Assembly (NCBI GenBank): GCA_017619375.1
Contig: JAFZSL010000031.1
Location: 62,001-126,000 of the forward strand
Length of the DNA: 64,000 nucleotides
Source: Prevotella sp.
GTDB lineage: Bacteria; Bacteroidota; Bacteroidia; Bacteroidales; Bacteroidaceae
Direction of reading: 5' to 3'
Below, one piece after another: positions 59,601 through 61,297 of this stretch. The position numbers and the translations under genes were made by a program. The notes beneath the pieces are model-generated. The model worked only from the letters and a program-made list of their open reading frames with translations, was not told where the DNA came from and ran no database searches. How positions within the stretch are numbered: the first letter of the stretch is position 1; each line of letters opens with the position of its first letter.

Positions 59601-60435
59601 AGAAGCTTACACAAATAGTTTTGCTATTGACGAAGATGGCAACGCTGTCATATCAGCAGTATTTAATGGAAGTACAATGACTTTGCTCTTTAACAAAAGT
59701 ACAGGTGACGGCAACTTCCGCTTCCGTTACTACAAGGCCATAAATAATACTAATGTTCCCATCCAACTCTACAAGCAAGTGGTAGAAGAGCCTTACACGG
59801 TCACCATTCAATCTCAGGCCACAGATGGTACAGATTATTATGCCACCATGGCCGACATTGGTGCAGGATATTTCGAGGTGCCAGAGGGCGTGGAAGTAAA
59901 GACAGTGAATGTCATCAATGGCAAGCTGAACTATCCTACCACCTTCACCAAGGGTGATGTGATTACCGGCCAAGGTGCATACCTCGTTGTAGCTTCAGCC
60001 GCCGAATCGTACACCTTCCCCACGGTATTGGAAGGAACAACGACCTTGCCTGACAACGACCTCAAGAGTAGTGGCAAAGGTAATCTCAGCGCAACCGCCA
60101 TGGCAGCCGCAAACGACGGCAACTTCAAGTTCTACAAGTTGTCCTTGCGCAATGGCAAGATTGGTTTCTATTGGGGTGCTGCTGATGGTGCCGCATTCGA
60201 GTACACCAAGAAGCAACAGGCTTATCTCGTGGTGGCACAGCCAGAGACAGGTAATTCCGAGTTAGCATCCGCATACTTCTTCGATGGTGATGCCACGGGC
60301 ATCTACAGCGTGAACGCTGAGATCGAGGATACGGAAGCCGAGGGCGTCTATAGCCTCTCCGGCGTTCGTATGGACGGCAAGGCTCTACCCAAGGGCGTCT
60401 ATATCGTGAATGGTAAAAAGAAGGTCATCAAATAA
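56680..60435 (+). CDS. large multidomain secreted protein (CHB_HEX_C, OB-like and SusE/F-like repeats, C-terminal sorting-like module)
   Basis: The 1251-residue protein has a signal peptide (MKQKLRFLMMTLLCAVVSSAWG; the start may be 56689). A chitobiase C-terminal-like domain spans ~157-234 (APTFSPSPGTYTEAQTVSIS, then TIYYTTDESTPSS). An OB-fold-like DUF5689-type region spans ~487-650 (GVVTSISGTNNKTVYIQD). Two SusE/F-type starch-binding-like repeats follow at ~662-765 and ~770-870 (YYVAGTWTSW, YFLVGTFNNW). Further beta domains lead to a C-terminal module GVYSLSGVRMDGKALPKGVY. It is likely a surface glycan-binding protein. The base composition is more A+T-rich than neighbours at the 5' end. The peptide gene at 60457 follows by 21 bp. 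Confidence 0.75.
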   Translation: MRIMKQKLRFLMMTLLCAVVSSAWGETQSVTISPSQALNNGGVSPITVTCAKGDGTSNPAISSGQLRLYQAASGKTTGNTISFSSAKTITSIVFTFANNMTADNGVFSEGTYDSATSTWTGSTNSVTLTVIGNSSSKRIYITNMVVYYDDGGVITVAAPTFSPSPGTYTEAQTVSISAEDGATIYYTTDESTPSSSNGTEYSSAINISETTTIKAIAVKDGVSSDVASATYTIVAPYVVEDGIFNFVEYGYGMTQDNSGYNDNPTILEAGNITINLSGGSNSRYYNNSGSLELRVYKACTMKISAPEGKVITKVEFETGTPLSRILYDGEPLATALPEGTVPTNGAWEGCMNEVTFTFSNTVNISKITVTYGNAPIIALDPNTPNPITIPYTGTVSSEDNRVYIIDRGVADIGIQFYDADQTTPLQSAPSWFVSEIDTHSNVLYSIGENTGEERTVYFKVWGAETPNATENDRIYTDLVTITQEAAPITIAEARAQEVGDVVFTKGVVTSISGTNNKTVYIQDATAAICVYGSISTDLTIGDEITVSGTLKNYNGLLEITSPTCNVVSNDNEVEPTLMTISEINASTNQGWLVKIENATVSTIIGKDVTISQGENSIVVRFNDTADITFAVNDIINLTGNIGCYNITQIANPTNVEIQEGDKYYVAGTWTSWATNMIEMTKNSEGKYILTGQQLAAEVEFKIVKVAGESSTWYGGQADGDQYWLTADNHTDIQLVNGANFYMPIAGTWTFTVDPNNGSPKLTVEGSWPEPDYFLVGTFNNWTTSDDYKLTKDETTGKYTISAAIAQGETFKIIDSDGIWYGAVSNGDFYVEANFVGTELSLASPGNNYYMNLSNTANWSIVFDPANMQLVLSNYVLPDPNASYVYQKVTKTEDLTSGKYLIVYEDASVAFDGSLTTLDAGNNTQDVVITVFDKIYMKDAIYFNIDPTAGTIQSASGKYIGVSSNSNGLKTSDDPEAYTNSFAIDEDGNAVISAVFNGSTMTLLFNKSTGDGNFRFRYYKAINNTNVPIQLYKQVVEEPYTVTIQSQATDGTDYYATMADIGAGYFEVPEGVEVKTVNVINGKLNYPTTFTKGDVITGQGAYLVVASAAESYTFPTVLEGTTTLPDNDLKSSGKGNLSATAMAAANDGNFKFYKLSLRNGKIGFYWGAADGAAFEYTKKQQAYLVVAQPETGNSELASAYFFDGDATGIYSVNAEIEDTEAEGVYSLSGVRMDGKALPKGVYIVNGKKKVIK

Positions 60436-60440
60436 AGAGA

Positions 60441-60446
60441 AGGAGG
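60441..60446 (+). promoter_or_regulatory. strong Shine-Dalgarno site AGGAGG
   Basis: A perfect AGGAGG lies 10 bp before the ATG at 60457. Most genes in this window lack one, so it suggests strong, independent translation of the peptide. Confidence 0.7.
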
Positions 60447-60456
60447 AAAGAAGAAT

Positions 60457-60627
60457 ATGAAAAAGTATGTTTGCCCCGTGACAGAAATCATTGCGCTCTC
60501 TGCCGAGCCTATCATGGATCTCGGCTACAGCGAAGGCCAAGGAGAAGGAGAGTTTGGCAACCGCAATACGTTCGAGGAGGACGTGAGTGCAGAATACAAC
60601 AATTCCAAGTCACTCTGGGATGACTAA
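60457..60627 (+). CDS. 56-residue peptide gene with conserved-looking N-terminal segment
   Basis: The peptide begins MKKYVCPVTEIIALSAEPIM and continues with a Gly/Glu-rich stretch (DLGYSEGQGEGEFGN) and an acidic Asn/Ser tail ending KSLWDD. It has 56 residues. The N-terminus is short, basic and mildly hydrophobic, not a full signal peptide; the rest is strongly acidic. I recall similar short peptides (MKK-Y-x-P-x-T/S-E-x...) in Bacteroidales, but no function is established to my knowledge. It is tightly linked to the large secreted gene (21 bp) with its own strong ribosome-binding site and is followed by a strong hairpin at 60651-60683. Codon phase is consistent throughout. Confidence 0.7.
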   Translation: MKKYVCPVTEIIALSAEPIMDLGYSEGQGEGEFGNRNTFEEDVSAEYNNSKSLWDD

Positions 60628-60650
60628 CACCCTACGCGGGATATGATAAG

Positions 60651-60683
60651 ACGGCGGCCGTGGTTCCTTACCACGGCCGTCGT
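60651..60683 (+). terminator. strong hairpin after the peptide gene
   Basis: ACGGCGGCCGTGGT (60651-60664) pairs with ACCACGGCCGTCGT (60670-60683) with one mismatch over 14 bp and a TCCTT loop. The T-tract is poor (CGTTATGA), so it may stop transcription or protect the 3' end. Confidence 0.65.
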
Positions 60684-60732
60684 TATGAATGGTGCGGCTG
60701 TAGGGAGTGACACATAATACCAACTTGTCAAA

Positions 60733-61052: not shown

Positions 61053-61114
61053 AAATCGCTCTCGCTCGGCAAACTGAAAACAAGCTTTCGTCTGCTCTCG
61101 CTTAATCGCGATTT
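61053..61114. repeat. 62-bp stem-loop unit A of a tandem pair
   Basis: It begins AAATCGC and ends GCGATTT (perfect inverted ends), with an interior CTCGCTCGGC...GTCTGCTCTCGCTTAATC shared with unit B. The unit looks like a REP/REPIN-type element. Confidence 0.65.
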
Positions 61115-61126
61115 TGAGCTACTCTC

Positions 61127-61189
61127 AAAGTTGCTCACGCTCGGCAGAATTCAAGCAAGCTTGGTCTGCTCTCGCTTAATCGCAACTTT
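61127..61189. repeat. 63-bp stem-loop unit B of the tandem pair
   Basis: It begins AAAGTTGC and ends GCAACTTT, again perfectly complementary. The end arms differ from unit A but keep pairing, a compensatory pattern. The interior (ACGCTCGGC...GTCTGCTCTCGCTTAATC) matches unit A. Confidence 0.65.
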
Positions 61190-61297
61190 CCTCCTTTTTA
61201 TATCTTTTTCCTCCTTTTTTAATCTTCTTCTTTTATTGCTATCATTAACATCTTGTGAATCAAAGGTATAAGAGATGTGTATAAAGGATTAGCATTC

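Follow-up and report, generated by a model that had tools for sequence, protein, structure and literature searches.

A conserved peptide gene behind type IX cargo genes in Prevotella, a candidate precursor matured in trans

In a stretch of 64,000 nucleotides from a Prevotella genome (the window; the whole genome, G000, comprises 4.26 Mb in 78 contigs), a short frame starts 21 nt past the stop of a 1251-aa frame that ends in a type IX-type tail (Table 1). This locus raises the question of whether such a frame is a gene and, if so, what an acidic peptide of pI 4.1 would be doing directly behind a large cargo protein.

Table 1. Features of the peptide gene and its locus (positions in the window)
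Feature	Position	Strand	Basis or remark
Cargo gene, 1251 aa	56680..60435	+	Signal peptide at the N-terminus (by eye); CHB_HEX_C_1/Fn3_assoc domain; C-terminal tail of type IX type
C-terminal sorting-type tail of the cargo, ending GVYIVNGKKKVIK + stop	60250..60435	+	Tail alignment A2
AGGAGG, 10 nt 5' of the ATG	60441..60446	+	Kept in RUG13201, degraded in RGIG8039; function doubtful in Prevotella
56-residue precursor-type peptide + stop	60457..60627	+	ORF (ATG at 60457, 56 codons, TAA ending at 60627), family pairs, orthologues
Predicted leader (residues 1-22, the end being a guess), containing Tyr4-x-x-Pro7	60457..60522	+	Y and P invariant in alignments
Ser25 codon, putative modified residue	60529..60531	+	Kept in both orthologues; +21 from Tyr4
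C-terminal motif KSLWDD	60607..60624	+	W[DEGSN] within the last 16 residues in 61/84 family members
Hairpin 3' of the peptide gene, likely transcript end	60650..60684	+	15 bp, -30.2 kcal/mol

The peptide gene and its family

The frame, the AGGAGG, the 21-nt gap and the downstream hairpin, from which an earlier note on this DNA had proposed a real small gene, are all borne out by the sequence, and no T-run terminator was reported at the hairpin by a consensus scan. Calling the gene unannotatable by length was overstated, because 56 codons lie above the usual length limit of gene callers. The remark that most genes here are without a Shine-Dalgarno (SD) sequence agrees with the single SD-like site found among 42 window genes of at least 150 aa. 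As an argument for the gene, the strong ribosome-binding site carries little weight, because in Prevotella bryantii, in the reporter data given in the accessible part of PMC3155529, adding or omitting the SD left the reporter level unchanged. SD-like sites stand 5' of 2/20 family members in the own genome and of 7/32 elsewhere, being commoner before family members than before the window genes (Fisher p 0.02), and AGGAGG is no family trait. Further downstream, a direct repeat of about 20 bases (tctgctctcgcttaatcgc) was seen by eye at 61080-61190, in the AT-rich gap 5' of a pyrH-type gene.

Two orthologues of the peptide were found, one 80% identical in RUG13201 (an uncultured Prevotellaceae MAG) and one 74% identical in RGIG8039 (a Prevotella sp. 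MAG from water-buffalo rumen). Compared with these two, the window peptide gene differs at first, second and third codon positions by 8/6/18 and 7/6/18, with dN/dS values of 0.24 and 0.16. Moreover, 18 close family pairs, some of which share a member, give pooled differences of 145/108/338 and a pN/pS of 0.26, with dN/dS between 0.09 and 0.34 in the 17 pairs where it is computable. The check suggested in the earlier note, conservation of the frame and a bias toward third positions, was run in this way; the frame is conserved and the bias is present, so that its proposal stands. A random frame is ruled out by the orthologues and the codon-position bias, and a read-through or frameshift extension of the cargo is also ruled out, because the gap between cargo and peptide ranges from -11 to 128 nt. 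The short frame is thus shown to be a coding gene that is conserved and belongs to a large family. Both orthologous peptides stand behind the same kind of cargo (974 and 988 aa), with a tail end common with the window cargo. The downstream neighbours in RUG13201 are those of the window (the pyrH-type gene and beyond); RGIG8039 has a different neighbourhood, yet the same cargo end and peptide.

Weak relatives, in the own genome and in others, were returned by a single-sequence search, and the profile A1 gave 18 members in the own genome at E 1; three further members (C12, C63 and C15), spotted behind tails, were then added to the profiles A3 and A6, which brings the number to 21. With A3, members are found at E 0.001 in 120 of the 150 genomes sampled from the genus and in 58 of the 69 of good quality, and across the order (198 genomes, own included) matches occur in 4 genomes with A3 and in 7 with A6. 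This search misses some members, because genome G004 was scored as peptide-free at E 0.001 with A3, yet holds a divergent one. Pfam and NCBIfam matched none of 27 members at E 0.1, the solved structures gave no match to the peptide profile at E 1, and a literature search, made mostly without subscription papers, returned no description recognised as this family.

A set of 84 non-redundant peptides, drawn from 3007 short frames of the examined loci with Y-x-x-P as a selection condition, has a median length of 60 aa and a pI below 5 in 69 cases. Its consensus corresponds to KKxY[IV]xPx[TI]E[VI][VI]x[LV]..[LI][LM]xxS, followed by an acidic stretch and SLW[DE][DE]. The Y and the P are invariant in the alignments of 15, 27 and 32 members (A1, A3 and A6), where Y-x-x-P was no condition. 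In genome G073, three tandem family peptides, two of them nearly identical, follow one cargo (C128, L205:4820-5415).

Cargo genes and their link with the peptide

The window cargo ends in a tail resembling GVYIVNGKKVVVK, and the own genome holds 103 such tails at E 0.01, together with SprA, a core protein of the type IX secretion system (T9SS), at 2556 bits. SprA is present in 143/150 genomes of the genus, G010 being the only one of good quality without it. No tail is found in G010, whereas 68, 117 and 104 are counted in G019, G073 and G009, all three with SprA; G260, from another family, has 73. The absence of tails from the genome that lacks SprA supports them as T9SS sorting domains. The model of the type A sorting domain, TIGR04183, gives weak matches in 2/10 tails (best E 0.0054), and the window tail is unmatched. 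The cargo types vary, including BspA-type LRR, InlB-type repeats, Big_2, cohesin-like and pectinesterase proteins, or no Pfam family. No protease domain appears in Pfam scans of 15 cargos. Enzymes account for 1/15 cargos with a peptide and for 2 of the 10 scanned out of 76 without it, and a clean split of cargo type by peptide presence is not seen.

Within the own genome, 12 of the 18 A1 members are found no more than about 100 nt 3' of a tail that shares their strand. Viewed from the tails, of which 91 of the 103 were examined, a family peptide comes next in 15, at -4 to 96 nt, and is missing in the other 76. Among the 29 other genomes with the strongest matches, out of 119, the best locus has a tail upstream in 25, and six of these 29 loci are A3 rows; of the remaining four, two open at the edge of their contig and the other two lack a tail. 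If 3% of genes are taken, as a rough assumption, to bear tails, the chance of 25 in the 27 assessable loci is about 3e-36. Also, tail-linked loci amount to 9 of the 13 fetched in G073 (17 matches), to 8/9 by profile in G019 (14 matches) and to 9/9 in G260 (15 matches). No strong hairpin lies between cargo and peptide in 13/15 own pairs, the exceptions, with one in between, being two pairs whose gaps measure 95-96 nt, and a hairpin of -25 kcal/mol or stronger is found 3' of the peptide in 12/15. These data show that the family peptide usually stands directly behind the cargo gene and before a hairpin.

Other partners are also found. In G010, which has neither SprA nor tails, Mfa_like_1 frames precede 2 of its 5 members, and over the 150 genomes no association between peptide and SprA is detected; a coupling to the T9SS as such is therefore ruled out. 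In the own genome and in G073, two partners followed by a peptide (L144:3191-5098 and L214:3938-5167) have no type IX tail and contain Dockerin_1-like stretches. In G204 (L184, L186 and L190), members of the head family precede frames for secreted proteins, one of them weakly Lcl_C, in a gene order unlike that of the genus of the window.

Closely similar peptides can stand behind largely unrelated passengers, as at L139/L140, with peptides 84% identical, and at L219a/L220 and L215a/b in G019. The window cargo and that of RUG13201 have 148 residues at the start and 240 at the end in common, and the middle only in part. Three cargo genes of G019 (C33 and C39; L219 and L220) carry nearly identical peptides and 3' ends with passengers that are largely unrelated, and a possible origin is an exchange of passengers by recombination. 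When all 528 pairs are compared, the similarity of the peptides goes with that of the passengers (Mantel r 0.27, p 0.0005), driven at least partly by orthologues, and not with that of the tails (r 0.03, p 0.37); for the 501 pairs without passenger similarity, the peptide-tail r is -0.08. Co-divergence of tail and peptide is thus not detected by these tests, and the idea of a 3' module rests on single pairs, because overall the peptide tracks the passenger and not the tail.

Predicted leader and candidate maturation genes

Two roles had been proposed for the peptide in the earlier note, an exported or secreted signal and a leader-type substrate. The first finds no support, since the window peptide has no hydrophobic signal sequence (a 10-residue mean of 2.0 is attained in 4/84 family members); Sec export is ruled out by the lack of a hydrophobic stretch. 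The second is the best-supported reading, with a maturation that is predicted from the evidence that follows. Y-x-x-P is described, in the accessible text of PMC12710340 and PMC13381572, as the motif that binds the leaders of lasso peptides and of linear polyphosphorylated peptides (LPP) to the RiPP recognition element (RRE). According to the latter source, the LPP-type RiPPs, reported in 2026 as restricted to Bacillota and with no known role, comprise the precursor LppA, the RRE LppB, the SpI-like LppS and the HprK-like LppK; the leader of LppA is cut after T-1 and its core Ser3 is phosphorylated by LppK (PMC13381572, accessible part).

A hydrophobic pair followed by xx-[ST] at the matching distance is found in 56/84 peptides, against 5.3 on average and 13 at most over 1000 shuffles. 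Because the shuffle also scatters the other conserved patterns, this shows conservation and not cleavage. A Ser stands at +20 from the Tyr in 35/84 peptides, with Ser at 9% further on. In the window peptide, a cut after residue 22, which is a guess made after seeing the sequences, would make Ser25 residue 3 of the core. Past Y-x-x-P, the leader consensus here is xTE[VI][VI]x[LV]..LLxxS, and the VLxHQxIxFETxxS of LPP is not found; what is common to both is, in outline, only the Ser after a hydrophobic pair.

That no maturation gene is adjacent, as the earlier note had pointed out, is true at the window locus, where our own profiles detect none in the whole window; candidates are found elsewhere, in related genomes and partly in the own genome. 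PqqD/RRE (PF05402) is present in 127/150 genomes of the genus and has four matches in the own one, which include the C55 locus and probably the C1 fusion described below. In the set of 69 good genomes, peptide and RRE occur together in 57, the peptide alone in 1, the RRE alone in 4 and neither in 7 (p 2.3e-6 by a Fisher test, which ignores the relatedness of the genomes); the single peptide-only case is G153. For all 150, the corresponding numbers are 108, 12, 19 and 11 (p 9e-4, with the same reservation). RRE and peptide thus tend to be absent together across the genus. A SprA tree was drawn for 40 genomes, namely 29 chosen positives and the 12 good ones that miss the peptide, the RRE or both, minus G018 with its incomplete SprA. 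On it, the label of having neither is somewhat clustered, with 33/500 shuffles as low, and needs at least 5 changes; the joint absence is therefore not one event.

Of the best-scoring RRE loci in other genomes, one per genome, 28/30 combine the RRE with a SpI-like peptidase and an HprK-like kinase, as judged with profiles built from eight loci, two of them also among the 30. Motifs of Ser/His/Asp type are present in 28/28 SpI-like frames and the P-loop in 27/27 HprK-like frames. The PqqD match is above the Pfam cut-off, and the NCBIfam matches to the archaeal-type signal peptidase I (best E 9e-7) and to an HprK-related kinase (E 5e-4) are both below their curated cut-offs. By eye, the cassette adjoins an RpoD-like gene in 8 of the 13 loci viewed, perhaps in nine, and no exporter gene, NTP transferase or MsbA-like transporter was recognised in these rpoD-linked cassettes. 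In the 400 kb of the own genome that were covered (about 9%), a separate trio was not located.

Some members do stand beside RRE genes. In the own genome (C1), two tandem Y-x-x-P members of 42 and 43 aa precede, in the same orientation, a gene for an SpI-like and RRE fusion (L340:7217-8529), and the same arrangement is found in an orthologous locus of G073. The N-terminus of this fusion resembles a lipoprotein signal. In G004, the divergent member, a gene for a 410-aa lipoprotein-like product and an RRE gene are found together, and opposite to them an SpI-like domain is fused to what, by eye, is an ABC-transporter-like protein. The RRE-neighbouring members of these three genomes are absent from the search profiles, and the nearest of them are short and divergent, with whole-genome E values of 0.17 with A1 and 0.0012 with A6. 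In the stretches around RRE genes, family peptides occur only at L283, at L296 and, about 3.7 kb off, at L288. Another own locus (L280, C55:46500-58500) holds radical-SAM-like, PqqD/RRE, NTP_transf_5 and HprK/ScmC-like genes beside capsule-export-like genes, partly by eye; it resembles a gene cluster for LPP or lasso peptides, set within a capsule locus, and has an orthologue in G073 (L281).

Explanations and known systems

Taken together, these data make it probable that the peptide is a precursor with a leader and a core, encoded last in a type IX cargo operon and matured in trans. In such a scheme, an RRE would bind Tyr4-x-x-Pro7 in the head of the peptide, an HprK-like kinase may phosphorylate a Ser just past the leader, Ser25 or a neighbour, and an SpI-like peptidase would remove about 22 residues, leaving an acidic core ending in SLWDD that could act with the partner surface protein. 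One enzyme set would serve several to about twenty scattered precursors. The phosphorylation, the cut site and the surface role of the peptide are predictions from genes. In a rival explanation, which we hold to be improbable, the RRE cassette would serve other substrates, with Y-x-x-P and the joint absence due to coincidence or shared ancestry and the peptide playing some other role. Y-x-x-P is indeed short, the genomes with peptide or RRE alone are 12 and 19, the labels are clustered on the SprA tree, and no family peptide lies beside the cassette itself in the stretches examined, with the nearest about 3.7 kb away in one. However, the joint absence requires several changes on that tree, the motif is far above the shuffles, and members that are absent from the profiles stand beside RRE/SpI genes in two kinds of locus.

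A dedicated cytosolic companion, a chaperone or pilot that stays unprocessed and would bind the new cargo, perhaps at the C-terminal tail, so that it remains competent for export, is a less unlikely rival, although we would not favour it. Small acidic chaperones are encoded beside type III effectors, and the peptide is small and acidic, has no signal sequence, stands last in the cargo operon and is strongly linked with tail-bearing cargos, some pairs keeping it while their passengers differ. Nonetheless, this would leave the Y-x-x-P head, the conserved Ser position and the joint absence with the RRE unexplained; also, peptide and tail similarity do not co-vary, most of the tails examined are without a peptide, and, in a genome that has neither SprA nor tails, relatives adjoin fimbrillin-like genes. 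Finally, it is very improbable that the peptide inhibits the secreted protein encoded upstream, or confers immunity to it, as potempins do with the KLIKK proteases. A small partner gene beside a type IX cargo has this precedent (PMC7296668, accessible part), and the peptide tracks passenger similarity, at least partly through orthologues. Against it, the scanned cargos show no protease domain, the peptide has no lipoprotein or signal sequence, and several near-identical peptides stand behind unrelated passengers.

Returning to the precursor reading, a wider version of it, possible but doubtful, is that a single trans-acting RRE-SpI-HprK factory in Prevotella acts on scattered leader peptides, several to about twenty in number, every one of them produced along with an adhesin that the type IX system secretes. 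The resulting phosphorylated acidic cores would act with the adhesin in anchoring, in mineral or glycan binding or in quality control, as a genome-wide companion system of surface proteins that draws on RiPP chemistry. A related enzyme set in most sampled genomes of a major genus of gut and rumen, its candidate substrates being paired to secreted surface proteins, would open the role of such peptides to direct tests. It would also explain a numerous class of small acidic proteins without a Pfam or NCBIfam name and bring an unexpected partner into type IX secretion.

Among known systems, the LPP RiPPs are similar in their short precursor with a conserved Y-x-x-P N-terminus and a variable C-terminus (PMC13381572, accessible part). 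An RRE, an archaeal-type SpI-like peptidase and an HprK-like kinase are found in the genus, and a Ser lies near the expected cut. In contrast, the LPP systems are described there as restricted to Bacillota and with the precursor clustered with its enzymes (PMC13381572), whereas here it stands behind a type IX cargo, no exporter was recognised in the cassette, and the modification is a prediction. The peptide would work like an LPP precursor without being classed as one, because the rest of its leader differs and the clustering with enzymes is not shared. Lasso precursors of the phosphorylated, paeninodin-like kind also have a Y/WxxP leader bound by a discrete RRE and an HprK-like kinase (PMC13381572, accessible part), but nothing suggests a ring in the window peptide. 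The potempins of Tannerella forsythia likewise pair a small gene with a type IX cargo gene; as described in the accessible text of PMC7296668, they are lipoprotein inhibitors, encoded upstream and paired with proteases, in contrast to the window peptide without a lipoprotein signal. Also, PorP/SprF genes beside type B cargos are cargo-adjacent accessory genes of type IX secretion, although their products are outer-membrane barrels (PMC10202324, accessible part), whereas those of the family described here are soluble peptides of about 60 aa.
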